DNA of 62,153 bases from a virus. Where the stretch lies: the IMG/VR virus record IMGVR_UViG_3300025141_000088, positions 1-62,153 of that record, one strand, 5' to 3'. Shown one piece after another: positions 35,670-54,593 of this stretch (position 1 is the stretch's first letter; each line of letters opens with the position of its first letter). Both the position numbers and the translations under genes were made by a program. The notes under the pieces were generated by a model. That model saw only the letters and a program-made list of their open reading frames with translations. It searched no databases and was not told the DNA's origin.

Positions 35670-36290
35670 ATGACCAAGGACCGCTTAGACAAACTCATCG
35701 AAGAGAAGAAGAAGGACGCAGACGAAGGTGCATTAGAGTTTCTTCAATCCCTTCGAACCAGCTTGGAGAAATGGGGCGAACTCACAGCCAAACAAACTGC
35801 AGCCTTCGAAAGGATCGAATACCTCTCCTCTGCAGAGGGAAAGGACTATGCAGCAGCATGGCAGAGAGAATTCACCGACGCACTCGCGGACAATGCAAAG
35901 ATTTGCGCTCGATATTACTTAGCGAACCCTCCCTATTTCAACGACCTTGCATCCAAGATTTTATCTAATGATGGTTTTGTCCCAACCGAGAACCAATATC
36001 GCGCCATGTGCGAGAATAAATATACCACAAAAGTCATTAAAGAATATCACAGACCACCAGAGTTTTTAAATGGGGACATTGTGCAGGTGAGGGACAACAG
36101 GTCGATGCCCTACCACCTTTATAGCATCAAGGGGAAACCCTGCGTAGTGATAAACAACAACAGTGGCCACATCACCACTCACGCCAAGGGAGCCAAAATC
36201 TACAAGATCCTCCCATTCGGGCAGCCAAAGCTTTTTGAATGTCAAGAGAGATACTTAAAAAGTCTAAAGCCTCAGAAGAAAAGTGCTTGA
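35670..36290 (+). CDS. Two-part protein with C-terminal KOW/SH3-like domain
   Basis: 206 residues. The N-terminal ~125 are helical (EEGALEFLQSLRTSLEKWG is close to the visible segment; KQTAAFERIEYLSSAEGKDY) and end in a phage-typical ENQYRAMCENKY. The C-terminal part, FLNGDIVQVRDNRSM then GKPCVVINNNSGHITTHAKG and FECQERYLKSL, matches the small G-D-L-V family. This is a fusion form of a domain otherwise free-standing here. Function unknown. Confidence 0.65.
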   Translation: MTKDRLDKLIEEKKKDADEGALEFLQSLRTSLEKWGELTAKQTAAFERIEYLSSAEGKDYAAAWQREFTDALADNAKICARYYLANPPYFNDLASKILSNDGFVPTENQYRAMCENKYTTKVIKEYHRPPEFLNGDIVQVRDNRSMPYHLYSIKGKPCVVINNNSGHITTHAKGAKIYKILPFGQPKLFECQERYLKSLKPQKKSA

Positions 36291-36315
36291 CACTATCTGC
36301 AGACCGTGATATAAT
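36287..36315 (+). promoter_or_regulatory. Consensus extended -10 sigma70 promoter
   Basis: TTGACA (36287-36292), 17-base spacer, TG-n and TATAAT (36310-36315). Nearly identical in layout to the SSB promoter at 5417, including the ATAATAACA downstream. Confidence 0.85.
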
Positions 36316-36343
36316 AATAACACACAAAAAAAAGGAGACTGTT

Positions 36344-36469
36344 ATGAACAGCGAAACAATGAAAGCAGTAAGAGAAGCCGCAGTAACTACTTTGTCCAAA
36401 GGCGCAGACTTAGCGTTCAAGACAACCGTCGTTGTACTTACTCTAAGATTGATGGGAATTTTACAGTAG
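36344..36469 (+). CDS. 41-residue protein behind a strong promoter
   Basis: AAAGGAGA and a consensus promoter make expression likely. The peptide (SETMKAVREAAVTTLSKGAD then LAFKTTVVVLTLRLMGILQ) has an amphipathic first half and a hydrophobic second half that may associate with membrane. Function unknown; strong early expression suggests a host-directed role. Confidence 0.65.
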   Translation: MNSETMKAVREAAVTTLSKGADLAFKTTVVVLTLRLMGILQ

Positions 36470-41487: not shown

Positions 41488-41516
41488 TTGACTTGATCCC
41501 AACTATGGTGTATAAT
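41488..41516 (+). promoter_or_regulatory. Sigma70 promoter for MoxR-like gene
   Basis: TTGACT (41488-41493), 17-base spacer, TATAAT (41511-41516). Predicted leader about 30 bases, with CGGAGA before the ATG at 41553. Confidence 0.8.
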
Positions 41517-41552
41517 GGATAGGGATCACAAAAACAACGGAGAATTACCAAA

Positions 41553-42656
41553 ATGGCCATCGACTTCAAAACATTCAGCTCTACCGCACCTCTCGTTCTA
41601 GAATCTAAATACCCTGTCCTCCTACGTGGACGCCACGGCATCGGTAAATCTCAAGTGGTTTATCAAGTAGCCACCACAATGCGCCTTCCTGTTGTCGAGC
41701 GCCGCGCCTCTCAAATGACCGAAGGTGATCTTTTGGGTATTCCGTCACCGGATGGTATAAGTATAAACGGAGAACAAGCCTCTAAGTTCCGACCCTTCGA
41801 GTGGCTAGTTCAGGCTTGCACCGAACCAGTAATATTATTCTTTGATGAGGTTGATCGCGCAACAGTAGAAGTTCGACAGGGCATCTTTGAATTGACCGAC
41901 TCACGCAAACTCGCCGGCTGGCACTTGCATGAAGATACGGTCATCTGTGCTGCTATTAACGGAGGGGAACACGGATCCCAATATCAGGTAGGTGAGATGG
42001 ATCCAGCAGAATTAGATCGCTGGACAACATTTGATGTTGAGCCAACGGTTGAGGATTGGTTAGACTGGGCAAAGGACGGTATCGACGAGTTAATCTGGGA
42101 TTTCATTAACCAAAACAGAAAACACCTTGAACATCTGGATGACTTCGATCCCGGCAAAGTATATCCTTCACGCCGATCATGGGATCGATTAAACCAAACT
42201 ATGGCACAGGCAGGACTCTTTAAGGAGCCGCGCACACCAGCAGTTTTTAGCCTAGCTTCAGTCTTTGTTGGCTTTGAAGCTGCTGTCGCTCTTTGTGATT
42301 TTATTAAAAACTATGCAAAGATCGTAACCGTTGAGGACATACTCTCTGATGGTAAAATTGAGCTGACTGAAGAGTTCGGTATTAACGACCACTCAGCATT
42401 GGTTGAGAAGATGTCCACACACAAGGTTTTCAACGGCGTGATGAAGAAGAAGGAACTCAAGAATCTTGCGTCCTACTTTAAGACATTACCATCTGAGGTT
42501 GCTATGAAGCTTTGGTATTCTCTCACTGTTAACGGTGGCGATAGCGCAAACGTTTTAAACTTGCACCCCCTCATCCGCGAGGATTTAGTTACTATGCTCA
42601 CATCTCTTGATGATGAAGATGACTTGAAACAAGAGCAGGAAACAGAGAAAGAGTAG
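41553..42656 (+). CDS. MoxR-family AAA+ ATPase
   Basis: 367 residues. Walker A is LRGRHGIGKSQV (~26-33), Walker B is VILFFDEVDRA (~92-100), sensor-like ICAAINGGEHGSQY follows, and ELDRW supplies an arginine-finger type segment. It belongs to the MoxR class that remodels or loads cofactors with VWA partner proteins. The gene directly downstream encodes such a partner. Target in the phage cycle unknown. Confidence 0.85.
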   Translation: MAIDFKTFSSTAPLVLESKYPVLLRGRHGIGKSQVVYQVATTMRLPVVERRASQMTEGDLLGIPSPDGISINGEQASKFRPFEWLVQACTEPVILFFDEVDRATVEVRQGIFELTDSRKLAGWHLHEDTVICAAINGGEHGSQYQVGEMDPAELDRWTTFDVEPTVEDWLDWAKDGIDELIWDFINQNRKHLEHLDDFDPGKVYPSRRSWDRLNQTMAQAGLFKEPRTPAVFSLASVFVGFEAAVALCDFIKNYAKIVTVEDILSDGKIELTEEFGINDHSALVEKMSTHKVFNGVMKKKELKNLASYFKTLPSEVAMKLWYSLTVNGGDSANVLNLHPLIREDLVTMLTSLDDEDDLKQEQETEKE

Positions 42657-42664
42657 GCTAAGTA

Positions 42665-43846
42665 ATGTCGAAAAAGAAATTTGATCTCAATAGGCATACC
42701 GCACGTCTGCTGATGAATGAGCCATTCTTTGCATCTCTTAGTCGGTGTGTGGATAAGGTGCAAACAACTGCAATCCCCACCGCAGCTATGAAGCTCGATG
42801 ATGATGGCTTCTTCACACTCTTGTATAATCCAGACTACTTCGCGAAGCTAACCGATGAAGAAATGGCCGATGTGCTTAAGCATGAGTTCTATCATGTTAT
42901 ATTTGATCACGTCACAGGTCGACTTCCAGACAAGACTGTTACAATGTTGTGGAATTTTGCAACCGACCTTGCTATCAACAGCCACCTGAAGAATCTTCCT
43001 GAAGGTGCCCTTGTACCTGGCGAAGGGGATTTTGAGGAACTACCGAAGTATCTTTCTGCCGAACAGTATCACGCAGAGTTGAAGAAGAGAAAGAAGAAAG
43101 AGAAATCAAAAAGTAGCAAAGAATCAGTCAAGAAACTATCAAGTGTTGGTGAGTTCGACGACCACAGTGGCTGGGGAGAAAGCAACTCAGGAAACAGAGA
43201 GTTGGCGAAAGAGAGATTAAAAGGAATCTTAAAGGAAGCATCGAAAGATGCCCAACAGGGCGGAGGCTGGGGCTCCGTACCAGAGAACATTAAGAGAGAT
43301 ATACTTTCCAGAGTCGATACCTCTGTAAATTGGAGAACAGTTCTCCGTTATTTCATTAAGACATCTCAGAAGGCTCACAAGTCCTCAACTGTTAAACGCA
43401 TCAACAGGCGTTATCCCTATTTACATCCGGGCCGCAAGACCCACCGTCAGGCTCGTGTTGCTATCAGTGTCGACCAAAGCGGCAGTGTTGATGATGGTAT
43501 GTTAACCGCTTTCTTTGCTGAACTTGCAAAGCTTTCCGAGATAGCAACGTTCACGGTTATCCCCTTTGATACAGAGGTGAGCGAAAAGGACGTGTTCGTC
43601 TGGCGCAAAGGGCAGCACGTCCAGCCTAAGAGGTTTTTAACAGGAGGGACGTGTTTTGATGCCCCAACTGCATATGTGAATGACCGTGATTTCGACGGGC
43701 ATATTGTTCTTACTGATATGTATGCCCCAAAGCCACGATCAAGTAAGTGTCAGAGAATGTGGATGACTACGCCATCCTGTGCAAAGAGCCCATACTTTGA
43801 GACAAAAGAAAGGGTTGTGGCCATCAATTATGATTCAGGGTATTAA
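42665..43846 (+). CDS. VWA-like metallopeptidase-type partner of MoxR
   Basis: 393 residues. The N-terminal domain has LKHEFYHVIFDHVTG, an HExxH zinc site of DUF2201 type. The C-terminal part is a VWA-like fold with VAISVDQSGSVDDGML (MIDAS DxSxS), then FTVIPFDTEVSE and FLTGGTCFDAPTAYVN. A lysine- and serine-rich linker joins them (~135-165). MoxR plus VWA genes normally act together as a chaperone-like pair. It overlaps the next gene by 17 bases. Confidence 0.8.
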   Translation: MSKKKFDLNRHTARLLMNEPFFASLSRCVDKVQTTAIPTAAMKLDDDGFFTLLYNPDYFAKLTDEEMADVLKHEFYHVIFDHVTGRLPDKTVTMLWNFATDLAINSHLKNLPEGALVPGEGDFEELPKYLSAEQYHAELKKRKKKEKSKSSKESVKKLSSVGEFDDHSGWGESNSGNRELAKERLKGILKEASKDAQQGGGWGSVPENIKRDILSRVDTSVNWRTVLRYFIKTSQKAHKSSTVKRINRRYPYLHPGRKTHRQARVAISVDQSGSVDDGMLTAFFAELAKLSEIATFTVIPFDTEVSEKDVFVWRKGQHVQPKRFLTGGTCFDAPTAYVNDRDFDGHIVLTDMYAPKPRSSKCQRMWMTTPSCAKSPYFETKERVVAINYDSGY

Positions 43847-44129
43847 AAGTTTTACATTAGGATTTCTGGTTGCAGGAGTCCTTTTTTGTTTTACGCCAGT
43901 GGTTGCAAATGTCTTTGAAGTTGAGAAGAAGATAGGCCAATTTATAGGTTCTTTTAAGTGCCGCACAGTTTATGTGCAAGACGTTGATCTCTTTGGAGGC
44001 AGAGTTCTGGTAACGGCTCAAGAACTAGGCATCAGCTTTGTGATGATTGCCAAGGATAGCTCCACCTACGACATCTGTCCTGTGGGTGTAGGTGTGACAA
44101 CCTTTCAAACACTAGACAAAAAGAAGTGA
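43830..44129 (+). CDS. Small exported or membrane protein
   Basis: 99 residues with an N-terminal hydrophobic helix FTLGFLVAGVLFCFTPVVAN (possible signal peptide), then a beta-rich domain (FKCRTVYVQDVDLFGGRVLV, LGISFVMIAKDSSTYDICPV) with two cysteines that could pair. Function unknown. Confidence 0.6.
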   Translation: MIQGIKSFTLGFLVAGVLFCFTPVVANVFEVEKKIGQFIGSFKCRTVYVQDVDLFGGRVLVTAQELGISFVMIAKDSSTYDICPVGVGVTTFQTLDKKK

Positions 44130-44345
44130 TCCCTAATTCCCCTTTAAAAACAGCTACTTACCTAAGTGCTTGATTTTAAAGGGTTTTTAATTTGCCCTGC
44201 GTGATGCCGATGGATCTCCTGTCCATTTTGAGATCCACGCAAGTGCCCGTAAGCCAGTGTAAGTCCAGCAACTACATGTAAGTGCCCGAATGTCGTTTTA
44301 TCCCTAAGTAGCTGTTTCTAAAGGGAAAGAAAGTGAAAATAATCC
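44130..44345 (+). other. Gene-free structured leader region A
   Basis: About 215 bases with no credible gene. A 21-base arm at 44140-44160 pairs with 44305-44325 at 20 of 21 positions. Three AAGT-containing repeats start at 44241, 44261 and 44280. The 18-mer ATGTCGTTTTATCCCTAA (44290-44307) reappears inverted at 54127-54144. The left edge, AAGTGATCCCTAATTC, resembles AAGTGATCTCTATTTC at 53895. A terminator lies inside (44140-44188). It may be an attenuator, a structured RNA or a protein-binding site. Function unknown. Confidence 0.7.
44140..44188 (+). terminator. Terminator-like hairpin in leader region A
   Basis: CCCTTTAAAA (44140-44149) pairs perfectly with TTTTAAAGGG (44174-44183), followed by TTTTT. 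The loop is long (24 bases). The same left arm can instead pair with 44305-44325, so the terminator is conditional in principle. Confidence 0.65.
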
Positions 44346-44373
44346 TTGCTATTTCTGTCAATGTTGGTATAAT
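44346..44373 (+). promoter_or_regulatory. Extended -10 promoter of accessory block
   Basis: TTGCTA (44346-44351), 16-base spacer, TG-n and TATAAT (44368-44373). It starts right after leader region A and drives the gene run from 44426. Confidence 0.7.
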
Positions 44374-44425
44374 AAGGACATATTTTGAAGCAGAGAAAAA
44401 CGAAACTTTTAAAGGAGTAAATAAT

Positions 44426-44752
44426 ATGCCAAACATTCACAAGCCATTCATCTATACTCGCAAAGACTATATGAACAACACGATAGATCATAAAACATTC
44501 TACAGTCAATTGGTTCGCCCATCATTGGTTCAGTTCATTAAAGATACTTTTGGTATGAAATTGTTAATGAGCAAGAAAAATGACGGACACTTCAATCACA
44601 TTCCGCTTAAAAAATGGGATATGATTAATGGTAACATTCACATGCCCAAGAAAGCTGATTGGGATATGGTTGAAGACTACCCCACAATGGCAGGTTTAGT
44701 CTGTGTATTGAAAGCAGCCGCACGAATGGCTGTAGAACAGGAGCAACAATAA
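44426..44752 (+). CDS. Unknown 108-residue protein, first gene of accessory block
   Basis: AAAGGAG precedes the ATG. The product has FIYTRKDYMNNTIDHKTFYS, VQFIKDTFGMKLLMSKKNDG, HMPKKADWDMVEDYP and a final helix. No family recognised. It overlaps the next start by one base. Confidence 0.65.
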   Translation: MPNIHKPFIYTRKDYMNNTIDHKTFYSQLVRPSLVQFIKDTFGMKLLMSKKNDGHFNHIPLKKWDMINGNIHMPKKADWDMVEDYPTMAGLVCVLKAAARMAVEQEQQ

Positions 44753-44940
44753 TGGATTGGGATAAGCAATACAAAATGTTAGACAAGCAAAATGAATGCC
44801 CCTCATGCGGGGAGCAAAAGAAAACTGTTATCACAGGCACTGATCATAGTGCTTGCCCTAAATCATTGCCTGTAACAATGACAACTAGAGGCTGTAAAAC
44901 CGAAGACTGTAAAGACTTCATCGAAGGGGAGGTATGGTAA
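44752..44940 (+). CDS. Small zinc-ribbon protein
   Basis: 62 residues with ECPSCGEQKKTVITG and later GCKTEDCKDF, giving C-x2-C and C-x4-C pairs that could bind zinc. Starts in the TAATG overlap. Function unknown. Confidence 0.6.
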   Translation: MDWDKQYKMLDKQNECPSCGEQKKTVITGTDHSACPKSLPVTMTTRGCKTEDCKDFIEGEVW

Positions 44941-45200
44941 TGAAATTTAAACCGAATGCGACAGCAACAAAGAGAACCAAGAACCGATTCAGTGAACACA
45001 CAATCATCCGCATTGCCGATGAAGGTGGGCTGATGTCAGAACACTTTGATAGAGAATTCGCTGAAAATGTTAGTGGATTTGTTGGTAGAACCTGCAGAGC
45101 TTTCTGTAGTATTGAGCGAAATAGCAAAGATCCACAATGGCCGCGATGGTTCGGCTGGATTCCAGTTGATGAAATTGAAGAAGTAGAAGGGGAAGATTAA
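44940..45200 (+). CDS. Small beta-rich protein
   Basis: 86 residues. The second of two in-frame ATGs (44940) is chosen because GGGGAGG is then 7 bases away. Segments SEHTIIRIADEGGLM, GFVGRTCRAFCSIE and WFGWIPVDEIEEVE could be a divergent form of the small barrel family, but the G-D-L-V start is missing. Function unknown. Confidence 0.6.
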   Translation: MKFKPNATATKRTKNRFSEHTIIRIADEGGLMSEHFDREFAENVSGFVGRTCRAFCSIERNSKDPQWPRWFGWIPVDEIEEVEGED

Positions 45201-45397
45201 TGCCAGCAACAAAAGAAGAATTAAAAGTATACAACCGTTATGAGGTTGTAACCGTGAGCCCCCACTTCGGCCAATCGACTGTGGGGATATATCAGACACT
45301 TAAAGAAGCACAAGATTATAGAGATCTCCTTTTTAGATCTCAGGACTTACCATTATTTATTTACGATACAATTAAACAAGAAAGAGTGAAGCTATGA
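45200..45397 (+). CDS. Unknown 65-residue alpha/beta protein
   Basis: RYEVVTVSPHFGQSTVGIYQ, TLKEAQDYRDLLF and LPLFIYDTIKQE. It is similar in order to the product at 55281 (RYEVRSINAHGQTI, TLDEAQEHAKV, VVVVYDAELEE), so the two look like paralogues in the two accessory blocks. Function unknown. Confidence 0.6.
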   Translation: MPATKEELKVYNRYEVVTVSPHFGQSTVGIYQTLKEAQDYRDLLFRSQDLPLFIYDTIKQERVKL

Positions 45398-45621
45398 ACC
45401 CAACAACAGAGAACACAAAGACAGGCACCTTTTCAACATGGACGACCACCGATCTGGATGGCACCTACAAAGAAGTGGGCCTGTACCGTACCAACAGCGG
45501 CCAAGTGGAGCGTAAAATGTTTGATACCGTTCGAGCAGCACTAGATTATGGTTTTGCTAATGGTTATCACCATCGCAGTCACATCCGTTACAGCGATTTC
45601 CTAGCGGGAAAAGGAGAATAA
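45394..45621 (+). CDS. Unknown 75-residue protein
   Basis: FSTWTTTDLDGTYKEVGLYR, DTVRAALDYGFANGYHHRSH. Beta then helix with a histidine-rich end. Overlaps the previous gene by 4 bases. No known motif. Confidence 0.55.
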   Translation: MNPTTENTKTGTFSTWTTTDLDGTYKEVGLYRTNSGQVERKMFDTVRAALDYGFANGYHHRSHIRYSDFLAGKGE

Positions 45622-45622
45622 A

Positions 45623-45769
45623 ATGACTGAACAACAAGAATTAGAAGCAGTGTGTAAATATCTCAAAGTAACTGAAGAAGAATTCTTCAAGATTATGGAA
45701 GTAGCCTACAAAAAGGTTATCAAAAAGCGAGTAGCCAAAGACAGCCCACCACCGATTGGAAACCTATAA
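45623..45769 (+). CDS. 48-residue protein
   Basis: AAAGGAGA precedes the ATG. Helical, charged (ELEAVCKYLKVTEEEFFKIM, AYKKVIKKRVAKD) with a proline-rich tail. Function unknown. Confidence 0.5.
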   Translation: MTEQQELEAVCKYLKVTEEEFFKIMEVAYKKVIKKRVAKDSPPPIGNL

Positions 45770-45770
45770 C

Positions 45771-45974
45771 ATGGATATTCAGAAATACCATCAAGTGATT
45801 AGAGACTTAGCCCGTTTTGAATTCGGCAGTGGATATTACACGCGCCCGTCTAACCCTTCGCAGGAAGTTCAGGTTGAGAACCTGCAGCTTAGGATAGCTG
45901 AACACTATCCTGATTTGGAGTCTGCTCAACTGGCGCTTAAAGAAGTACAGAAAAACAAAGAAAGGATGCTATAA
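45771..45974 (+). CDS. Unknown 67-residue protein
   Basis: DIQKYHQVIRDLARFEFGSG then QVENLQLRIAEHYPDLESAQ. Helical. One base after the previous stop and overlapping the next start by one base. No known motif. Confidence 0.5.
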   Translation: MDIQKYHQVIRDLARFEFGSGYYTRPSNPSQEVQVENLQLRIAEHYPDLESAQLALKEVQKNKERML

Positions 45975-46165
45975 TGTTCAAAGTAGATATTAAGTATTGC
46001 CCTTGGGCATCTCTTACACCATCTTGGGAAGTGCTGAAAGAGGATATTGCCTCTGAAGAAGAAGCAAGGGCGTTTGCCAATGAAGTAGCATCTGAACATT
46101 CACAATGCACCGTTCGCATCACAGATGATGATGATGCTTATTATGAAACCACTATTGAGTCATAG
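45974..46165 (+). CDS. Unknown 63-residue alpha/beta protein
   Basis: FKVDIKYCPWASLTPSWEVL, IASEEEARAFANEVASE and CTVRITDDDDAYYE. The strand-helix-strand order recalls the products at 45200 and 55281. Overlaps the previous stop by one base. Confidence 0.55.
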   Translation: MFKVDIKYCPWASLTPSWEVLKEDIASEEEARAFANEVASEHSQCTVRITDDDDAYYETTIES

Positions 46166-46174
46166 GAGACAACA

Positions 46175-46435
46175 ATGATTATCAGCCCATCCATTAAATC
46201 CATCCGTATTGACAACCATCTTAAAAACACCTTTGGTGTTGACCGCGAAGAGGCAATCCTTGATGAAGTGTGCGTACCTGCACCCATTGGTTGCGGCCAA
46301 CCTGTTGTCAAGTTTCGCACCGAGGCAGACGCGAAGGAATTTACAATCTCAGGACTTTGCCAGTCCTGCCAAGACGAACTTTTTGAAGATACCAAGATTG
46401 AAAAATGGTGCTTTGACGCAGATGTAGGAGAGTAG
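46175..46435 (+). CDS. Unknown 86-residue protein with cysteine motif
   Basis: Segments SIRIDNHLKNTFGVDREEAI, VPAPIGCGQPVVKFRT and ISGLCQSCQDELF. The C-x2-C and earlier cysteines could bind a metal. AGGAGA precedes the start. Function unknown. Confidence 0.55.
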   Translation: MIISPSIKSIRIDNHLKNTFGVDREEAILDEVCVPAPIGCGQPVVKFRTEADAKEFTISGLCQSCQDELFEDTKIEKWCFDADVGE

Positions 46436-46436
46436 C

Positions 46437-46715
46437 ATGGAAGATAGATTGAACACAATTTTAAATATTTTTGAACGAGCATTGGTAGAGAACTTCAAAG
46501 GAGAGAAGTCAGACTACTCTCTAAAGAATGATTACATTGATATGAAGTACGAATTCTTGAAATTGCTTCTTGAGGCAACCCACAAGGAACCAACCAACTT
46601 TAGCTTTGACTTGTTTCAAGAAAAGGTCAAATCAACCAGCCCCCTTATGCAAGACAATTTCAAGAGATTTGAAAACACCGAAGCATTTTCCCTTACCAGA
46701 ACCATCAACGATTAG
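46437..46715 (+). CDS. Unknown 92-residue helical protein
   Basis: Helices RLNTILNIFERALVENFKGE, DMKYEFLKLLLEATHKE and FSFDLFQEKVKST. No recognised motif. One base after the previous gene. Confidence 0.55.
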   Translation: MEDRLNTILNIFERALVENFKGEKSDYSLKNDYIDMKYEFLKLLLEATHKEPTNFSFDLFQEKVKSTSPLMQDNFKRFENTEAFSLTRTIND

Positions 46716-46723
46716 GAGTTACC

Positions 46724-47200
46724 ATGGCAAGAGCAGAAGAAACAATTAGAGTATCCACTGAAACAGAAAAGTGTTTTGTGACAATCAAAGAATTCAAAAC
46801 TCGATTGCACAGAGGCGAGTTCCCTAACATCTTACAACGCTTGCAGTCTCGCCACGGCCGGCTCAACACAAAAGCTCTTCGTGCCGCAATCGCATACGGG
46901 CGAAAGTCTTACAAGTTGAGAAGCGGCAAACTGCGAACCAGGTCATGTGATCCGTATGGTGCAATATTGAAGCAAAAGAACGCTTCAAAGCATTGGGAAA
47001 TTGACCTGATCTCTGCAGCAAAAGAAGACAAGAGGTTGAGGATGGCTAGAAAAGTAACGGAAACATTGAGGAGCAACCCACTGGTTCAGGAACTAAGAAG
47101 AATCGAGGAAGCTCAAGAGAGGCAGCTTACAGAGCTTAGAGGTAGAATTGAAGCTATTATTGAAGAACAGCGCAGCGCACTCATGAACGAAGTACAGTAA
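46724..47200 (+). CDS. Unknown 158-residue basic protein
   Basis: Strongly basic middle (LHRGEFPNILQRLQSRHGRL, AIAYGRKSYKLRSGKLRTRS) and a C-terminal coiled-coil-like helix (LRRIEEAQERQLTELRGRIE). DNA or RNA binding is plausible from charge; no family recognised. AGGAG precedes the ATG. Confidence 0.6.
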   Translation: MARAEETIRVSTETEKCFVTIKEFKTRLHRGEFPNILQRLQSRHGRLNTKALRAAIAYGRKSYKLRSGKLRTRSCDPYGAILKQKNASKHWEIDLISAAKEDKRLRMARKVTETLRSNPLVQELRRIEEAQERQLTELRGRIEAIIEEQRSALMNEVQ

Positions 47201-47211
47201 AAGGAGTTACC

Positions 47212-47418
47212 ATGATTGAAATCAACAACCTTACCACTAAAGTATTAATGGCATCACGCCCACACTGCCCTGACGTAAGCCTGTTAGCTTTCCTGTCCGA
47301 GCTAGGGCGCTTGGACGATAATCAGCGCGAGCAAGTCTTGGAGACTGCTCGTATTGCTTATGAAGATTATGACAAGCGAAACAACTTTGAATGGGACCAC
47401 GGATGTTACAGGGACTAG
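47212..47418 (+). CDS. Unknown 68-residue protein
   Basis: AAAGGAG upstream. DVSLLAFLSELGRLDDNQRE and QVLETARIAYEDYDKRNN form two helices. No known motif. Overlaps the following frame by 16 bases. Confidence 0.55.
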   Translation: MIEINNLTTKVLMASRPHCPDVSLLAFLSELGRLDDNQREQVLETARIAYEDYDKRNNFEWDHGCYRD

Positions 47419-47567
47419 AACTGCTTTCAAAGGTTTTTGATGGCAAGTCTTATAAGCGTGTTAACATGAAACCTCTCCTAAAGTTCTGGCTTGTTCTGCC
47501 GGAGAGGTGGTCGCGATATAGAGGCAAAAAATCACCACACAAGAAGGTGAGAAAGTTAAAGCAATGA
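47403..47567 (+). CDS. Possible 54-residue basic protein
   Basis: Hydrophobic first part (LQGLELLSKVFDG), then KPLLKFWLVLPERWSRYRGK and a lysine-rich end. The ribosome site is weak; a shorter start at 47466 is possible. Function unknown. Confidence 0.4.
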   Translation: MLQGLELLSKVFDGKSYKRVNMKPLLKFWLVLPERWSRYRGKKSPHKKVRKLKQ

Positions 47568-47701
47568 ATTTTCTTGACATATGGAGTGAACTAGGTTATA
47601 TTGATGGTATGATATTTTCCCTTTGGGTAGGGATCATGTACTATGGTAAGTGCCGAATCGACCACAAATTTAAGTGCAAGGAGAATAAAAATGAAGTATG
47701 A
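47564..47701 (+). CDS. 45-residue membrane protein
   Basis: ATGA overlap with the previous frame. One transmembrane segment (YIDGMIFSLWVGIMYYG) after DIWSELG and a basic tail (HKFKCKENKNE). Overlaps the next gene by 11 bases. Function unknown. Confidence 0.45.
   Translation: MNFLDIWSELGYIDGMIFSLWVGIMYYGKCRIDHKFKCKENKNEV
47574..47602 (+). promoter_or_regulatory. Possible promoter inside a small gene
   Basis: TTGACA (47574-47579), 17-base spacer, TATATT (47597-47602). It lies inside the 45-residue frame, so it may be chance or may serve the gene at 47691. Confidence 0.45.
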
Positions 47702-47888
47702 TAATTTTAATTCCATTGTGGATAAAATGATGCTCTACGAAGGTGGAGATATGAACGAAGAAGAGACAGTAGAATTCTTTCAGGAACTACTTGACCGCAG
47801 ACTTATCAACAGTCTTCAGGGCCACTACCAACGAACTGCAGAACTCTTGCTGGAGCTTGGTCACATCGATTTGCGAAAGGGACAATAA
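47691..47888 (+). CDS. Small conserved phage protein (DUF7417-like)
   Basis: 65 residues with NEEETVEFFQELLDRRLINS, LQGHYQRTAELLLELGHI. This FQELIDxxLxxxLQGHYxRTAxxLIExG pattern recurs in many phages (recalled, not searched). AAGGAGAA precedes the ATG. No function is known. Confidence 0.65.
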   Translation: MKYDNFNSIVDKMMLYEGGDMNEEETVEFFQELLDRRLINSLQGHYQRTAELLLELGHIDLRKGQ

Positions 47889-48250
47889 TGAGAGCAGCAG
47901 ACTTTTTAAACCAAGACATGGTGAATGACATCATGTCAAACATGCACCCTGACAGCAACTCAATTGAGTGTGTCATGTTGCAACAAGTAAACGGTGTCAA
48001 CTCGTTCAAGACGGGCGACAGAGAAATTAACCCCTTTATTCTTGCTGAGATTACAAATGGTAACAGTTTTTCTCAGTACCCCAAGGGTTCTATCGTGCTT
48101 GTTCCAAGGAACAACTGTCACTTCTTGCCTAGCAAAGTTGGGCAAACAACTGTATGGTTCCGCTTCTTCATTGCAGAGAAGCATGTCAAAGGCATCGCCC
48201 ACAACAACGGCAAGTGGAACATCTCAGAAGCCAACAGGTGGGGCTCTTAA
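47888..48250 (+). CDS. Unknown 120-residue protein
   Basis: Beta-rich after residue 40: INPFILAEITNGNSFSQYPK, GSIVLVPRNNCHFL, TVWFRFFIAEKHVKG. A small barrel is possible. Starts and ends in one-base stop/start overlaps. No known motif. Confidence 0.55.
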   Translation: MRAADFLNQDMVNDIMSNMHPDSNSIECVMLQQVNGVNSFKTGDREINPFILAEITNGNSFSQYPKGSIVLVPRNNCHFLPSKVGQTTVWFRFFIAEKHVKGIAHNNGKWNISEANRWGS

Positions 48251-48450
48251 TGACGTTCTTGGAGTGGGAGATATACTATCGCTACGAACTAGAGCAAGCC
48301 AACAAAGCGACTGAGGAATTTCTGTCTGCTGCCGTTGGTATTCTCAACCAAGAACACATTGATGCCATCAAGATGCTTCTCGATGTATCCAAGCATGTTG
48401 TGGAGAATGGCTCACTGGATGAGGATACAAACAAGTGGAAGGTCGAATAA
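48250..48450 (+). CDS. Unknown 66-residue protein
   Basis: TAATG overlap with the previous gene. Helical (WEIYYRYELEQANKATEEFL, HIDAIKMLLDVSKHVVENG). No known motif. Overlaps the next start. Confidence 0.5.
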   Translation: MTFLEWEIYYRYELEQANKATEEFLSAAVGILNQEHIDAIKMLLDVSKHVVENGSLDEDTNKWKVE

Positions 48451-48677
48451 TGATTGTTCCCGGCGACTTAGTGAAGCACGCAGATTGGGAATTCAACCCT
48501 GTTAACTGCAAGCGAGAAGGAATAGGGTTTGTTGCAAGTTACGACAAGCAAAAGTGGTACGACTCTGGAAAGAATCACCACCAGTGGGTCATTGTCCATT
48601 GGATACCATTCGCCCCAAGCACCTCTAATGCGGTATACCATGTCGATTCGCTGGTGAGAGTGTCTCATGGAGATTAA
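48450..48677 (+). CDS. KOW/SH3-like protein
   Basis: 75 residues: IVPGDLVKHADWEFNP, REGIGFVASYDKQKW, HHQWVIVHWIPFAPS, YHVDSLVRVSHGD. Clear member of the G-D-L-V family with the W at the fourth strand. It overlaps the next family member by 11 bases: two paralogues in tandem. Confidence 0.7.
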   Translation: MIVPGDLVKHADWEFNPVNCKREGIGFVASYDKQKWYDSGKNHHQWVIVHWIPFAPSTSNAVYHVDSLVRVSHGD

Positions 48678-48936
48678 GGTTGGCGACTTAGTGAGGTACG
48701 ACCCGAAGGTGTTTAGAGATCCGACCTTAACTCAGACACACCAAATGCCCTTCGGCTGGCTCAGGGACGACTATGAAGGTTGCGAACCTGAATGGCTCGG
48801 TATCATTTCCAAGGTCGATAAAAAGATGTGGGGCACCCATGGCGGCATGGGATATGAGGTTTTATGGAGTCACGGTTATGTGGAGAAGGTTTATGCCTTT
48901 GAACTAGAGAGAGTAGAGGTAGAGAAGGATGATTAA
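48667..48936 (+). CDS. KOW/SH3-like protein
   Basis: 89 residues: EIKVGDLVRYDPKVFR, PEWLGIISKVDKKMWG, MGYEVLWSHGYVEKVYAFEL ending ERVEVEKDD. Clear member of the family. Starts inside the previous paralogue and overlaps the methylase by 8 bases. Confidence 0.7.
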   Translation: MEIKVGDLVRYDPKVFRDPTLTQTHQMPFGWLRDDYEGCEPEWLGIISKVDKKMWGTHGGMGYEVLWSHGYVEKVYAFELERVEVEKDD

Positions 48937-49705
48937 AAAAGAATTTAAAAACGGAGTTGTTTATCTTGGAGATTGTCAGGAGGTAATGGAAACACTAGAC
49001 AGAAACTCAGTCGAGGTGTGTGTTACATCACCACCTTATAATCTTAACAAGAGATACTCTAACTATGAGAACTCAAAGACTAGCAAGTCTATGACGGAAA
49101 AGTACGACAAGTGGTATGCTGATGACATGCCCGAATGGGAATACCAAGGTTGGCAGCAATCAGTCATTCACTCTCTGATGAGAGTCTGTGCAAGTAGCAT
49201 CTTCTATAACCACAAGGTTCGCTTCGCTTGGCACAACCGCAACATCTTTCGTTCTGAGAGCAACCTGCATCATCCGATGCAATGGCTGGCCAAGTTCCCC
49301 ATCTGGTGTGAAATTATATGGGACAGGTGCGGCATTGGCAACCCTTCAAGGCGTTACCATATTCAAGAGGAGCGAGTCTACCAGATTCAGAAGCCTCGCA
49401 AGTGGAGCAATGACTTGGGGCTCACAAACATATGGAAGATACCACCATCAAGAAACGATGGGCACGTCTGCACTTTCCCTGAGAAGCTGGTTGAGAACTG
49501 CATCTTACCCACCACAGAAGAGGGTGACACGATTATCGATCCTTTCTTGGGCGCCGGCACCACTGCAGTCGTAGCCATCAAACACAACCGACGCTTCATC
49601 GGTATCGAAAAGGATGAAGAGTATTTCAAGCTGGCCTGTGAGAACATTGCGAAGGCAGAAGAAAATAACACGCAAAAAGTGCTTGACATATCTTCAAGGG
49701 TGTGA
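48929..49705 (+). CDS. DNA methyltransferase (TSPPY type)
   Basis: 258 residues. Catalytic CVTSPPYNLNKRY (~32-42) precedes the SAM-site IIDPFLGAGTTAVVAIKHN (~205-220) and FIGIEKDEEYFKLA: the beta order. TSPPY is common to both N4-cytosine and N6-adenine enzymes. It is the third DNA methylase here and has no nuclease next to it, so it is probably protective. Confidence 0.87.
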   Translation: MIKKEFKNGVVYLGDCQEVMETLDRNSVEVCVTSPPYNLNKRYSNYENSKTSKSMTEKYDKWYADDMPEWEYQGWQQSVIHSLMRVCASSIFYNHKVRFAWHNRNIFRSESNLHHPMQWLAKFPIWCEIIWDRCGIGNPSRRYHIQEERVYQIQKPRKWSNDLGLTNIWKIPPSRNDGHVCTFPEKLVENCILPTTEEGDTIIDPFLGAGTTAVVAIKHNRRFIGIEKDEEYFKLACENIAKAEENNTQKVLDISSRV

Positions 49706-49711
49706 TAAAAT
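49683..49711 (+). promoter_or_regulatory. Extended -10 promoter
   Basis: TTGACA (49683-49688), 17-base spacer, TG-n and TAAAAT (49706-49711), starting inside the end of the methylase gene and serving the small genes from 49762. Confidence 0.7.
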
Positions 49712-49761
49712 GTTAACAAGAGAGGGATCATCCTCACTTAAACAACAGAAGAGGTAATACA

Positions 49762-49836
49762 GTGTTTGAATTCTTAATTTTATTTGGTATTTTTTATATT
49801 TGTCTGTGTCAGACTAAGGAGTATAATCGTGACTAA
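49762..49836 (+). CDS. 24-residue membrane micro-protein
   Basis: GTG start with GAGGTAATACA upstream. A hydrophobic helix (FEFLILFGIFYICLC) and a charged tail. Overlaps the next gene by 8 bases. Function unknown. Confidence 0.4.
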   Translation: MFEFLILFGIFYICLCQTKEYNRD

Positions 49837-50149
49837 AATTAATCCCTATGATTTACCAACAACAGAAGAGCGAAACATCCGTATCGTCTTGAAGAACATC
49901 AGTTGGGACACCGATCTGCAGGAAAGAGAGATAAGACTCCCCAGCTCAATGAGTATCCCTGTGGACAGCAGTCTACCAGAAGAGGAGATGATTTCCAGGG
50001 CAATCGATGCTGCATCTGACGCTTGGGGTTATTGCATCAATGATTGTGACATCAGCCCTGTTGATTACGGTTCACCGAATCCTCCCACCCCCTTAACATG
50101 CGACACCTCCCTATCAGATACCCTTGATTATGAGGGGGAGATATTCTAA
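49829..50149 (+). CDS. Unknown 106-residue acidic protein
   Basis: GTG start with AAGGAG at the right distance. NIRIVLKNISWDTDLQERE, EEEMISRAIDAASDAWGYCI then a proline/aspartate-rich tail. No known motif. Confidence 0.55.
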   Translation: MTKINPYDLPTTEERNIRIVLKNISWDTDLQEREIRLPSSMSIPVDSSLPEEEMISRAIDAASDAWGYCINDCDISPVDYGSPNPPTPLTCDTSLSDTLDYEGEIF

Positions 50150-50202
50150 TGGCACCTACAGACAAGGAATACATAGAATATCAGTGTCGCTTGTTGTCTT
50201 AG
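50149..50202 (+). CDS. Possible 17-residue peptide
   Basis: GGGGGAG upstream and a one-base overlap with the previous stop. Sequence APTDKEYIEYQCRLLS. Too short for a function call; may only couple translation. Confidence 0.3.
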   Translation: MAPTDKEYIEYQCRLLS

Positions 50203-50217
50203 GAGCTAGTTATATGT

Positions 50218-50322
50218 ATGGATATGGATGGCTTTGCAGGAATTTTTTTATATATGATGCTTCTTATTTCGGGATGCATGATGGTGTGGTTCCTGCTCAC
50301 TCACACAACAACACCTCTGTAA
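50218..50322 (+). CDS. 34-residue membrane micro-protein
   Basis: AGGAG lies about 12 bases upstream. Hydrophobic segment FAGIFLYMMLLISGCMMVWF followed by LLTHTTTPL. An overlapping frame from 50214 also exists but is less protein-like. Function unknown. Confidence 0.45.
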   Translation: MDMDGFAGIFLYMMLLISGCMMVWFLLTHTTTPL

Positions 50323-50338
50323 CTACGGGGAAACATCA

Positions 50339-50455
50339 ATGGGCTTAGCTCCCTATTTCGACAAAGACTTGAAGGGCGAGTGGTTCCTTGTTTATGTTGT
50401 AGATATGCTTGTATGGTTTGCCATCGGATACATAACCGCCGGAGGAACATTGTGA
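50339..50455 (+). CDS. 38-residue membrane protein
   Basis: GGGGAAA upstream. Transmembrane segment FLVYVVDMLVWFAIGYITAG after a charged DKDLKGEW. Overlaps the next start by 4 bases. Function unknown. Confidence 0.5.
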   Translation: MGLAPYFDKDLKGEWFLVYVVDMLVWFAIGYITAGGTL

Positions 50456-50772
50456 AGAAAAAACCAATACCAGACGTTTCAGACATACTGGAAGCCTTTG
50501 ATAATAAGAACAAGTTCGCTATTAAACACCCAGCTATCGCAAAGGAAAAAGCAATGGAAGATTTAAGAAACAGAGAAGAAGACATAAACGCCATGGCCGC
50601 CAGAGATTTTAATACCATCACTCTTGGAGATTATATTAGTGCAGCGCACGTTTACAATCGAGAGATAATGGGCGGAACCATCGATGCAGAACAGCGTTCT
50701 GCTTACTTTACCCTCTTCGCCTTTGAAGAACGGGCAAAGAGAATCTGTGAACACTTTAGCTATATTCAATAG
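50452..50772 (+). CDS. Unknown 106-residue helical protein
   Basis: GTG start with GGAGGA upstream. DVSDILEAFDNKNKFAIKHP, EKAMEDLRNREEDINAMAAR and YFTLFAFEERAKRICEHF. No recognised motif. Confidence 0.55.
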   Translation: MKKKPIPDVSDILEAFDNKNKFAIKHPAIAKEKAMEDLRNREEDINAMAARDFNTITLGDYISAAHVYNREIMGGTIDAEQRSAYFTLFAFEERAKRICEHFSYIQ

Positions 50773-50784
50773 AGGTTGAGAATT

Positions 50785-50970
50785 ATGAGCGGTTCTAGTA
50801 GTGTTGTCCTTACCATTGGGGAGTTAACCTATATTTATGAGACTCTACATGAGAGGAGAACATCTGGCGTGGATTCCAAAAAAGAGAAGAAATTGTGCAA
50901 GAGCGTCATGAAGACTATCGAAGAAGAGATGTTCAAAGTAGAAGAAGAGGGGGGTGATAAAGATGAGTGA
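50785..50970 (+). CDS. Unknown 61-residue protein
   Basis: GAGGTTGAG upstream. VLTIGELTYIYETLHERRTS then a charged helix SKKEKKLCKSVMKTIEEEMF. No known motif. Overlaps the next gene by 8 bases. Confidence 0.5.
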   Translation: MSGSSSVVLTIGELTYIYETLHERRTSGVDSKKEKKLCKSVMKTIEEEMFKVEEEGGDKDE

Positions 50971-51247
50971 GGATAATCCGGACTTCTTGTATGAGGTTGG
51001 CGATTTGGTGGAATTGGCTCGCTTTGGGTTCTCCCCTCAACATGCAAAAGACAGAGTATATGGACTTGTAATCGGAGTGATAGGCCCCGTCGATTATTTT
51101 GTTCCTCGTTATAGAATTCGCATTAACTATAGGCCCGATGGTGATGAGGCACACTTAGACGATTTCGTTGTATCGCGAAACGAGAAGGTAATAACGGTCA
51201 TGGAATATGACATCGTAGAACGCACCCAAAACGGCGGGAGAGAATAG
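50963..51247 (+). CDS. KOW/SH3-like protein
   Basis: 94 residues: YEVGDLVELARFGFSP, RVYGLVIGVIGPVDYF, RYRIRINYRPDGDEAHLDDF, VMEYDIVER. GGGGGGTGA precedes the start. Family pattern is clear; function unknown. Confidence 0.68.
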   Translation: MSEDNPDFLYEVGDLVELARFGFSPQHAKDRVYGLVIGVIGPVDYFVPRYRIRINYRPDGDEAHLDDFVVSRNEKVITVMEYDIVERTQNGGRE

Positions 51248-51301
51248 AAGGACCTCAGAGGCAAAGGCGAAGCCGCGCAGAAACTTGACGGAATTTTTTT
51301 T

Positions 51302-51637
51302 ATGAAAGAAGAACAAAAGCAGTTTAAAAATGGTGATTTAGTGCTAGTCCAGCCAATGAGGTATTGCTTCACCATCACCGAAGGTGGTATTGAGGTGCTA
51401 AATGAGGAAACTCCGCAAGCCAAGCTCATGCACCATTGGACCGCAGACGGATTCAAAGCTCGCGTCCTAAGCTCAATCACCCTACATGGATCCCAAAACA
51501 CAGAGGAATACCTTGAAGTGAAGCTTTTCGGCAAGGGCCGTAAGCACTTTGTGAACCGCAATGAAGAAAAAACCAAGGTTGTTTGGATCCAAGAGCGCCT
51601 AGTTACTAGATGTAAGGACGGCAAGAAAAAGGAATAA
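51302..51637 (+). CDS. KOW/SH3-like protein
   Basis: 111 residues: FKNGDLVLVQPMRYC, an insert, then FKARVLSSITLHGS, EYLEVKLFGKGRKHFVNRNE, VVWIQERLVTRCKDG. No ribosome site is seen; an 8-T run directly precedes the ATG. Function unknown. Confidence 0.62.
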   Translation: MKEEQKQFKNGDLVLVQPMRYCFTITEGGIEVLNEETPQAKLMHHWTADGFKARVLSSITLHGSQNTEEYLEVKLFGKGRKHFVNRNEEKTKVVWIQERLVTRCKDGKKKE

Positions 51638-51645
51638 ACAACCCA

Positions 51646-51921
51646 GTGAGCGAAGACATCTTAGGACCAGATCAGTTGAGGGTAGGCGACATTGTTAAGC
51701 TATACAACTACTACTGTGGGTACGATGAGTTCACAAGAATGGCGCCAGAAATTACCGGCATGCTAATTAAAATAGGTAGAGAAACTCAATTCGAGTTCTA
51801 CGAGATAGCAGTAATGAAAGACGAGTGCGGCAATGGCGGATATGTCCAGAGATACTTAACAAGCGATTTCTTTGTAATAAAGATAAGCAGCAAATACGAA
51901 AGAGAGGTCAGTGATGGCTAA
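51646..51921 (+). CDS. KOW/SH3-like protein
   Basis: 91 residues from GTG: LRVGDIVKLYNYYCGYDEF, ITGMLIKIGRETQFEFYEIA, VQRYLTSDFFVIKISSKYE. Member of the same family with a tyrosine-rich insert. Confidence 0.62.
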   Translation: MSEDILGPDQLRVGDIVKLYNYYCGYDEFTRMAPEITGMLIKIGRETQFEFYEIAVMKDECGNGGYVQRYLTSDFFVIKISSKYEREVSDG

Positions 51922-52123
51922 GGGAAGAAAGAAAAAAGAAAAGTATAGTACAAAGCAAGATAACGTTCCAAACGATGACGCATTACGAAAGTCGTTGATT
52001 GAAGAGTTTATCGCAAGCAACTCGAAGGACGAAGAGATGTACCAAGAGTTTGAAGCAGTGCCTTATGAAGCAGGACAAATTGTTCGCTCAACTGCAGGTA
52101 GCAAAGGCAAGAAGAAATCTTAA
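51914..52123 (+). CDS. Unknown 69-residue charged protein
   Basis: ATG at 51914 with AGAGAGG upstream. Basic start (AKGRKKKEKYSTKQ), acidic helix and basic end (GSKGKKKS). No known motif. Confidence 0.5.
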   Translation: MAKGRKKKEKYSTKQDNVPNDDALRKSLIEEFIASNSKDEEMYQEFEAVPYEAGQIVRSTAGSKGKKKS

Positions 52124-52134
52124 GGAGATTCAAA

Positions 52135-52815
52135 ATGAAAAACAAAAACATTACAATAAAGGTCTTGATGGAGACAATGAGAAAGTTGAATCAAGAGGGT
52201 TATGAAGACATTGGGTTAGCCCACAGAGATCCAAAGACAGGCAAGTTGAAGCCACCAACAAAGAACATATCTTTAGAATTCCCAGACCCAGAAGGTGGCC
52301 ACTTATCACAGAAAGATTTGCTAAAAATTCAACAAACTAATGCCCCCACAAGCGGTACAGCAGACGACCAGCTTGACGCAACTGCTTTCCACAAGGGGAA
52401 CAAGGAAAAGAATAAACCAAAGGGTGAGTTCGCTAAAGACCTACCAGCACATGCAAGCTCACTAATAAGCGCCGATGAAGAGGATGAGGACTTGTCCAAC
52501 GCTTTTCCAATGCCGTCCAGTGCAACGCTAATGAGGGCCAATGAAACAGCAGTCGTCTTGGATGATCCAGACAGCAATCCCTTTTCAACAAACGAACCAA
52601 CGCGAACAATGGCTTACGATCTTGAAGACACTGTTCCAGACGCAGAGTCAGAGACAGAAGAACTTGTTGATAGACTAAGCGATCAAGTGGTCACAACCTT
52701 AGAACTCAACGGACCATTCGACCCATCAAGCGAAAAGGCAAGAGCAGCCATCGAAGATGCAATAATGACTGTACTAAAAGACATGGATAGAGCAGACCCA
52801 TATGATAGGAGCTAA
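52135..52815 (+). CDS. Unknown 226-residue acidic protein
   Basis: Start KNKNITIKVLMETMRKLNQ is amphipathic, then RDPKTGKLKPPTKN, long acidic low-complexity regions (ISADEEDEDLSNAF, DLEDTVPDAESETEELVDR) and a C-terminal helix EKARAAIEDAIMTVLKDMD. The layout of ordered ends and an acidic middle resembles the scaffold-like protein at 23.8 kb, but similarity is only compositional. AAGGAGA upstream. Confidence 0.55.
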   Translation: MKNKNITIKVLMETMRKLNQEGYEDIGLAHRDPKTGKLKPPTKNISLEFPDPEGGHLSQKDLLKIQQTNAPTSGTADDQLDATAFHKGNKEKNKPKGEFAKDLPAHASSLISADEEDEDLSNAFPMPSSATLMRANETAVVLDDPDSNPFSTNEPTRTMAYDLEDTVPDAESETEELVDRLSDQVVTTLELNGPFDPSSEKARAAIEDAIMTVLKDMDRADPYDRS

Positions 52816-52817
52816 AG

Positions 52818-53084
52818 ATGTCAAAGTCATGGCTAGATATTGAGAAAGAAGTGGAGCAAGAAATGTTGGAAAGATTCAACAGTGTTCCTATCGAACAAAG
52901 AGCAAAGCTTGGACTCGAAGGCCCAAGCACAAAGGCCCATGATAATAGGCAGTGGGTCCAAGCTTATGTGCGACTATTAGCATGGAAGAATAAGTGTCGT
53001 GAATTGCACGAACTAGCATACCCCATCGCAGCCAACAAGAGTTCTGCGGGGAATAAAAAAATAAAGTTAAAAGAAGTAAAGTAA
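52818..53084 (+). CDS. Unknown 88-residue helical protein
   Basis: WLDIEKEVEQEMLERFNSVP, WVQAYVRLLAWKNKCRELHE and a lysine-rich end. Two bases after the previous gene, one-base overlap with the next. No known motif. Confidence 0.5.
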   Translation: MSKSWLDIEKEVEQEMLERFNSVPIEQRAKLGLEGPSTKAHDNRQWVQAYVRLLAWKNKCRELHELAYPIAANKSSAGNKKIKLKEVK

Positions 53085-53323
53085 TGCCCTTAAGCAAGAG
53101 TTATATAGCAGAGCTTAATAAAGAGATAGCACACTGGACATACTTGTATGAAAGGGGCTGTATAACTCAGGATACATATTTGGTTGAGAGAGCTACACTT
53201 ATAAGAGATTACTATATGAAGTATTATGATGATGAAATGAATTGCCTACTAGACTATGAGAAGGATACTGAACCTAAAGGTCTAGTTGGTATAGCCCTTA
53301 AACTTGTGAGGAAACTATTTTAG
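53084..53323 (+). CDS. Unknown 79-residue protein
   Basis: KSYIAELNKEIAHWTYLYER, YLVERATLIRDYYMKYYDDE and a C-terminal VGIALKLVRKLF. Helical, tyrosine-rich. TAATG overlap with the previous gene. Confidence 0.5.
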   Translation: MPLSKSYIAELNKEIAHWTYLYERGCITQDTYLVERATLIRDYYMKYYDDEMNCLLDYEKDTEPKGLVGIALKLVRKLF

Positions 53324-53327
53324 TATA

Positions 53328-53633
53328 ATGGCGGCATCCAAGTTACTATATAAGGTTGGTGATTTAGTGAAGGTTAAAGAGGCAACCTATCACTACATGG
53401 ATATTTCTGAGACTTTCCCCGGCGGCATGGGTCTGGTTGTGGGCAGGACAGATAGTTGGTATGAAGCATATGAGCAAACCAAGCAACAGCCCGATCTTAG
53501 CAAAACCCACTATTGGGATAATGTTAATTATTCCCCCTATAGAGTGTTGATGTGTGGTAGCCATGAAATGGAATGGATAAGCCCCGAACACATGGAACCT
53601 GCATACGACCAGCAAAACAAAGACGATGAATAA
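53328..53633 (+). CDS. KOW/SH3-like protein
   Basis: 101 residues: LYKVGDLVKVKEATYHY, GGMGLVVGRTDSWYEAYEQT, YSPYRVLMCGSHEMEWISPE then HMEPAY. A clear family member with a longer second loop. It is the last gene before leader region B. Confidence 0.7.
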   Translation: MAASKLLYKVGDLVKVKEATYHYMDISETFPGGMGLVVGRTDSWYEAYEQTKQQPDLSKTHYWDNVNYSPYRVLMCGSHEMEWISPEHMEPAYDQQNKDDE

Positions 53634-53639
53634 ATTGAA

Positions 53640-54161
53640 GGTCTGCCGTTTAGCAGTTTAACGCGGTGGTGCCTAACATATAATATTTTATGTAAAGACG
53701 TTCATATTTATTATATAATATGTGCCGTCTGTAGTGCCTATTTAATATATAATAAATGGTGATGGTGTATTAAATAGCCTGTTTTATATATTAATGCAAG
53801 GGGCATAGTGTATTTAAGGGGGCTTTGGTGGTATCTAGTGGATCAAGGTGGTTAGCCCTAGCACGTTGGTGCTAACTAGATCCCATCGCTAAAAAGTGAT
53901 CTCTATTTCTCCTTATTAAACGCCCACTTGCAACACTGCGACATGCCGCTACACCTGCCTAACCCCCCGTACTTGCTAACCTTTCTACCCCTTGCACTGC
54001 GCCAATCCGATGCAGATCCGCCATCCCTACCATTTAGCCGATCCGCATAAGTCCAGCAAACCCGCATAACTCCAGCAATCCTACGCAAGTACCACATATC
54101 GATTAATCCCCTGCGTTTTCGAGGAGTTAGGGATAAAACGACATAAACACAGGCAAAGGGC
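53640..54161 (+). other. Gene-free region B: AT-rich stretch plus repeats, candidate origin
   Basis: More than 500 bases without a credible gene. 53676-53800 is very AT-rich, with many TATAATAT-like runs. 53833-53881 can fold into nested hairpins (ATCTAGT/ACTAGAT, AGCAC/GTGCT). From 53890 it parallels leader region A: AAGTGATCTCTATTTC at the left, AAGTCCAGCAA (54049), AACTCCAGCAA (54068) and CAAGTACC (54086) spaced 19 bases apart, two inverted ACTTGC copies (53926, 53971), and TTAGGGATAAAACGACAT (54127-54144), the exact inverse of a region A 18-mer. AT-rich DNA beside iterons fits a replication origin (inference). Confidence 0.6.
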
Positions 54162-54224: not shown

Positions 54225-54593
54225 ATGCAAAAAACATATTTAAACATCCCCAACACAGGCACAAATCAAAACATGGTACGTCAAGCCGTATCTCAATTCA
54301 TGGTTGAACAAGTTTTAACCAAAGATGAGATAATGGAGCTTGCCATGTCGCACCTTGAAGAAACCTATGAGGCAGCAGGGCATAGCATTGGCGACCTTGC
54401 CAAAATGGTTAAGCAAACCAACATCCCAAGCCAAATTAACTTTGACGGCACAGAGGGTCCATCACAGCCTAATCACATGCTTTGTCATGGCTCTATTCCA
54501 GGCTACAACGGCGATGGTCCACAATACTATTTTTTCACTAAAGAACAAGATTACGAATACTCCGCAATGGAAGTAAAGGAAGAGGTGCAATAA
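54225..54593 (+). CDS. Unknown 122-residue protein, first gene after region B
   Basis: AAAAGGAAG before the ATG. YLNIPNTGTNQNMVRQAVSQ, FMVEQVLTKDEIMELAMSHL and a C-terminal part with DGPQYYFFTKEQDYEYSAME. Helical then aromatic. No family recognised. Confidence 0.6.
   Translation: MQKTYLNIPNTGTNQNMVRQAVSQFMVEQVLTKDEIMELAMSHLEETYEAAGHSIGDLAKMVKQTNIPSQINFDGTEGPSQPNHMLCHGSIPGYNGDGPQYYFFTKEQDYEYSAMEVKEEVQ

Follow-up and report, generated by a model that had tools for sequence, protein, structure and literature searches.

Control regions in which GATC sites lie inside an upstream protein-binding region are found at phage Mu mom and E. coli pap. An upstream array at whole-turn distances, combined with a weak -35 hexamer and a short spacer of 16 bp, is how activator-dependent promoters are laid out. 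In phage T4, oriE carries evenly spaced direct repeats by an early promoter, which are syntenically conserved and whose role is undefined, and some T4 origins are also without a switch in base composition or transcription direction (PMC3016281). T4 early promoters have a good -35 match and need no viral factor; at the middle promoters, the MotA box replaces the -35 element and lies 12 +/- 1 bp from the -10 (PMC2988021). The kind of system described below is already known, and our literature search found no description of its motif.

We analyzed a viral contig 62,153 bases long (the window, or G0), which is probably a fragment. An initial annotation had pointed to two related gene-free leaders at 44130-44345 and 53640-54161, flanking a 10-kb block of small genes. 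The relatives used for comparison were G1 (64 kb), G2 (190 kb), G6 (158 kb), G7 (191 kb), G8 (45 kb, truncated), and G9 (119 kb); all except G1 were located via protein and pattern searches. A DNA search of the window against named phages gave no match, the best identity of the DNA polymerase to those of named phages was about 31%, and an operon-2 protein matched them only marginally. Judged by these comparisons, the phages of this group are only distantly related to named ones. We label it T4-like because it has a match to the T4-type late sigma factor (phrog_234, E 2e-7).

The features of the two leaders, in window coordinates, are as follows.

44140..44189, + strand: intrinsic terminator of the upstream operon (arms 44140-44160 and 44163-44183, then a T-run)
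44199..44236, + strand: GCGTGATGCCGATG, then the GATC inverted pair GGATCT...GAGATCC, kept in leader 1 of six genomes with 9 or 18-19 bp from GATC to GATC
44239..44252, + strand: direct repeat copy 1, GCAAGTGCCCGTAA
44259..44272, + strand: direct repeat copy 2, GTAAGTCCAGCAAC (spacing 20)
44278..44291, + strand: direct repeat copy 3, GTAAGTGCCCGAAT (spacing 19)
44291..44317, + strand: block TGTCGTTTTATCCC and repeat copy 4 (start 44304, spacing 26); holds the 18-mer
44346..44373, + strand: promoter of leader 1 (TTGCTA-16-TATAAT, TGG), its -10 lying 77 bp from the block start
44426..44752, + strand: opening gene of operon 1 (the listed ORF begins at 44333; the ATG at 44426 comes after a Shine-Dalgarno-like GGAG)
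53634..53985, + strand: upstream stretch without coding sequence, holding the GTGATCTC edge and inverted repeats rich in A/T; a related stretch is present in G2
54000..54044, + strand: CGCCAATCCGATGCAGATCC...GATCC pair
54047..54098, + strand: three direct repeat copies of leader 2, at 54047, 54066, and 54085 (spacing 19, 19)
54097..54110, + strand: leader 2 putative degraded forward block TATCGATTAATCCC (11/14 matches; 87 bp from the -10)
54117..54144, - strand: leader 2 inverted block, made of the 18-mer (54127-54144) and an inverted repeat-like extension; only in the window genome
54162..54189, + strand: leader 2 promoter, TTGACT-16-TATAAT with TGT
54225..54593, + strand: opening gene of operon 2, encoding 122 aa, then tiny genes

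Read 5' to 3', leader 1 consists of the terminator, GCGNSATGCCGATG, GATC half-sites (consensus GGATCT...AGATCC), direct repeats, a block running into repeat 4, an A/T-rich stretch that is A-rich just 5' of the promoter, and the -35, 16-bp spacer, and -10, followed by tiny genes. Each module holds three to four copies of the direct repeat (consensus TAAGTnCCnGnAA), and the block follows the consensus TGTCGYTTTnTsCsTAAGT. Because the terminator, which has equivalents upstream of leader 1 in the relatives, precedes leader 1, the array is upstream DNA and not part of an mRNA. Leader 2 is a shorter version of the same module. The element AAGTCCAGCAA occurs at 44261 and 54049, each time with relatives spaced by 19 to 20 nt, in agreement with the spaced repeats that the initial annotation had described in both leaders. 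The shared left edge that it had described, AAGTGATCCCTA in leader 1 and AAGTGATCTCTA in leader 2, is also real; its AAGTGA in leader 1 belongs to the end of the upstream ORF 43779-44129 (stop TGA at 44127-44129). The two edges are related, since in G2 they are alike at 31 of 42 bases (manual count). We likewise confirmed the extended -10 promoter proposed after each leader (at 44346 and 54162, both with TGn) and the tiny genes that follow. GATC was not concentrated in the leaders, and GATC clusters were therefore discarded as a genome-wide signal.

The exact 18-mer TTAGGGATAAAACGACAT, reported once per leader in opposite orientation, was found at 44290-44307 (-) and 54127-54144 (+). The rest of the record holds no further copy, even with up to three mismatches allowed in the window, where shuffles give 0.05 matches. 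Outside the window, the exact sequence was present in one viral contig, G1. The 18-mer is only a core of the longer conserved block and repeat; both in window leader 1 and in G1, it makes up the forward block. In leader 2 of the window, the perfect inverted block sits just downstream of the degraded forward block. Matches of the 11/14 type to the forward block occur nine times across the whole window; thus, it is position and not similarity that argues for a degraded forward block at 54097. Past the 18-mer, the likeness of the inverted copy is weak (8 of 14 further bases, which about 1% of window 14-mers equal). The inverted 18-mer looks like a lineage-specific local rearrangement of one leader 2 block, beside its decayed forward original.

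As the initial annotation had implied, the leaders are related, paired, and at control positions before two small-gene operons; they are also kept in relatives. A weight matrix for the block, made from sites of G0, G1, G2, and G6, found exactly two sites in each of the G0, G1, G2, G6, and G7 contigs and one in the truncated G8. Because G7 contributed no sites to the matrix, it serves as an independent test; its blocks scored 30.0 and 21.2 bits versus 14.9 for the next best site, as compared to 33.1 and 24.5 versus 13.2 in the window. The gap to the next best site was 16 to 20 bits in G1, G2, and G6 and 6 bits in G7 and G8. The two blocks lie 11.4 (G1), 10.1 (G2), 8.7 (G6), 10.8 (G7), and 9.85 kb (window) apart. 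They have the same orientation in G1, G2, G6, and G7, the second being inverted solely in the window. The leaders adjoin homologous genes across the relatives, and the gene order around them in G1, G2, G6, G7, and G8 is that of the window; some genes have switched operon, such as the 54928 gene, a member of operon 1 in G7 and G8. Leader 2 of G9 is seemingly the same as that of G6. A block-pattern search of bacterial and archaeal genome contigs gave matches in unrelated contexts, and the array was absent from the matches listed. L121, L075/L079, L078, and L080 were discarded as chance pattern matches.

The internal geometry of the modules is rigid. In leader 1, the repeats are spaced 20/19/26 in G0, G1, G2, and G6 (copy 4 of G0 being read from the sequence), and in leader 2 about 20/36 in G1, G2, and G6. 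The GATC sites of leader 1 lie 9 bp apart in G2, G7, and G8; in the other modules the distance is 16 to 19 bp, with the exception of leader 2 of G2, which is without the pair. The two spacings differ by about one helical turn. Identity between leader 1 arrays is 61 to 82% over 88 ungapped nt. Between G0 and G1, it is 72% over the 88 nt with no gap, versus 32%, near saturation, at fourfold-degenerate sites of the neighboring genes.

The distance from block start to -10 is 77 bp in leader 1 of G0, G2, G6, G7, and G8, 67 bp in leader 1 of G1 and in leader 2 of G1, G2, G6, and G7, and 87 bp in leader 2 of G0 when measured from the degraded forward block. Because the 11 modules give 67, 77, or 87 bp, the steps are only 10 and 20 bp; the distance to the promoter thus shifts in whole helical turns, through few independent changes. 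If net changes of -20 to +20 bp are taken as equally likely, a multiple of ten has a chance of about 1/10. Three independent changes would therefore be so phased about once in a thousand by chance, the number of events itself being an estimate (about three, in related genomes). The -35 hexamers match TTGACA at only three to four of six positions in 10 of the 11 leaders; the exception is leader 2 of the window (best -35 TTGACT), where the array is disturbed. Among the other TGnTATAAT sites in these genomes, 29 of 57 match TTGACA at five to six positions, 23 of those with a 17-bp spacer, and the remainder may be chance sites. Repeated sequence-specific sites lie upstream of a recognizable promoter, the arrangement of an upstream activator or operator array.

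Like T4 oriE, the leaders have even direct repeats at an early-type promoter, in the same place in relatives and with small early genes nearby (PMC3016281). They differ in having two copies 10 kb apart, a periodicity of about 20 bp, the GATC pair, and the 10-bp phasing to the -10, with no compositional sign of an origin. The likeness drawn here is one of layout. With T4 early promoters, they share a sigma70-type extended -10, A/T-rich upstream DNA, and many tiny genes (PMC2988021); however, the -35 is poor, the spacer is 16 bp, and a long array lies upstream. In joining a phage-specific element to a weak -35 and a strong -10 of the sigma70 type, the leaders recall the T4 MotA middle promoters (PMC2988021), but here, the conserved elements lie about 50 to 150 bp upstream of the -10, and no MotA box at 12 +/- 1 bp from the -10 was seen in the leader promoters when their sequences were read by eye. 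As in Mu mom and pap, GATC sites lie within an upstream array, here a putative binding region, in a phage that carries DNA methyltransferases; that these enzymes act on GATC, or that methylation has a part here, would be speculation.

Two copies per genome share one anatomy, are conserved with rigid spacing, and keep a 10-bp phasing to their promoters. We think it probable that the leaders are paralogous cis-regulatory modules, that is, upstream operator or activator arrays that co-regulate two early-type tiny-gene operons through a helix-face-dependent contact with sigma70 RNA polymerase. A sequence-specific protein, either phage-coded or from the host, would bind cooperatively to the three to four direct repeats, to the block, and to the two GATC half-sites. 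Once bound, the assembly would touch the polymerase on a fixed face of the helix. Both operons, which run in the same direction, would then be switched together by the common array protein. Given the poor -35 hexamers and the 16-bp spacer, this protein would most likely be an activator. A weak -35 is no proof of activation, as an upstream repressor or nucleoid-type complex would leave the same trace. For large uncultivated T4-like phages of about 190 kb, with regions rich in unknown tiny genes, such a module would offer a testable regulatory signature. It would mark two co-controlled operons and yield a bait sequence with which to isolate the regulator. The module is also relevant to an open question in T4, the purpose of the conserved direct repeats that adjoin an early promoter at oriE.

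In the main alternative, the same repeats would be iterons that bind an initiator at two replication origins, with the promoter making a primer or an activating transcript, as proposed for T4 oriE. The T4-type late sigma match and the evenly spaced direct repeats kept at a syntenic place speak for origins, which we regard as unlikely but worth weighing. The leaders show neither a base-composition skew nor a transcription switch, nearly all genes being on one strand, although this absence is not decisive. Furthermore, no A/T-rich unwinding stretch appears to be conserved across the modules (one is present only in the window's second leader, at 53674-53795), phasing to the -10 is explained more directly by contact with RNA polymerase, and even for oriE, the link between iterons and replication is not established (PMC3016281). 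Because T4 early promoters need no phage activator, an array by an early-type promoter may nevertheless serve replication. In a combined form, which would be a new kind of two-site control locus and which we consider speculative and very unlikely, the twin arrays would bind one initiator/activator that couples transcription of the two early operons to the start of replication, perhaps by bridging the 10-kb block; such bridging would account for exactly two arrays, always 9 to 11 kb apart. Conservation and phasing would fit equally well if an early protein, perhaps a product of these operons, bound the repeats and shut both promoters, and paired early promoters with common operators are frequent in phages. 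Operators that block initiation usually overlap the -35 or -10, however, and here the conserved sites stop well short of these elements, the block starting 67 to 87 bp before the -10; a weak -35 is also unusual where a promoter needs repression alone. Repression is, in our judgment, quite unlikely.

The initial annotation had suggested that the block might be flanked by the inverted pair as sites of recombination or of bidirectional control. Neither of these two suggestions was borne out, although the exact inverted 18-mer of the window would suit sites for inverting or excising the 10-kb block, or the ends of a mobile element. The blocks are direct in G1, G2, G6, and G7, with gene order and segment orientation as in the window, and none of this indicates inversion. 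Both members of the pair sit within promoter regions, at a fixed distance from the promoter, and no recombinase or transposase was found among the block proteins scanned, which were part of the set. We find recombination sites hardly credible. Transposon ends, for which inverted arrays of about 20-bp sites were considered, were rejected because of the direct orientation in relatives. Bidirectional control is not supported, since both promoters face the same direction and, in the relatives, almost every gene does likewise. A riboswitch or other structured RNA leader, which a gene-free region with inverted repeats might suggest, is highly improbable: the promoter is downstream and the terminator upstream of the conserved elements, GATC spacing shifts in about whole helical turns, and an Rfam search of the leaders matched no family.

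Promoter type and gene size suggest that the genes after each leader form operons and would be expressed early. The tiny genes of operon 1 continue to about 53633. Homologs of its first gene are present in G1, G2, G6, G7, and G8, and in the large relatives both operons keep their first gene and several others. The genes at 45200 (operon 1) and 55245 (operon 2) are related (30% identity, E 9e-6), a likeness that fits, weakly, an old duplication of promoter and genes. Among ten operon proteins scanned, the methyltransferase alone scored above the curated Pfam cutoff, and the proteins scanned, part of the gene set, included no candidate for binding the repeats.

The phage encodes DNA methyltransferases, and the one in the small-gene block (48929-49705) is 93.5% identical to its G1 counterpart, as compared to 30 to 75% for most other genes; recent exchange or unusual constraint are possible reasons. 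Directly 5' of leader 1, the window encodes a MoxR-type ATPase beside a DUF2201/VWA-like protein (41553-43846), kept in large relatives. The protein encoded at 31302-33224 (640 aa; 67% identity to that of G1) has several metal-binding repeats of the MopE type (PF11617) and represents unusual phage cargo. A phage GroEL is located at 27699-29270, and G2 carries a ribosomal protein S21 homolog (64084-64305).

In G1, a candidate small RNA lies 5' of leader 2 (36198-36345, reverse-complement coordinates; L025/L031), where an extended -10 promoter is followed by a strongly folding stretch of ~135 nt and an intrinsic terminator. A like arrangement is found upstream of leader 2 in G6 (L033, about 1310-1460 after reverse complement), with compensating stem changes between the two. 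Within this candidate, GGCATGTCGC complements GCGACATGCC of the leader module. Last, GTGATCCC was tried as a shared operator and rejected, being mildly enriched without specificity. The element GTGATCCC/GGGATCAC is mildly over-represented and lies at the start or within the spacer of several TTGACA-17-TATAAT promoters (window 41500-41535; also in G1, G2, G7, and G8), where it is possibly the operator of a second regulator.
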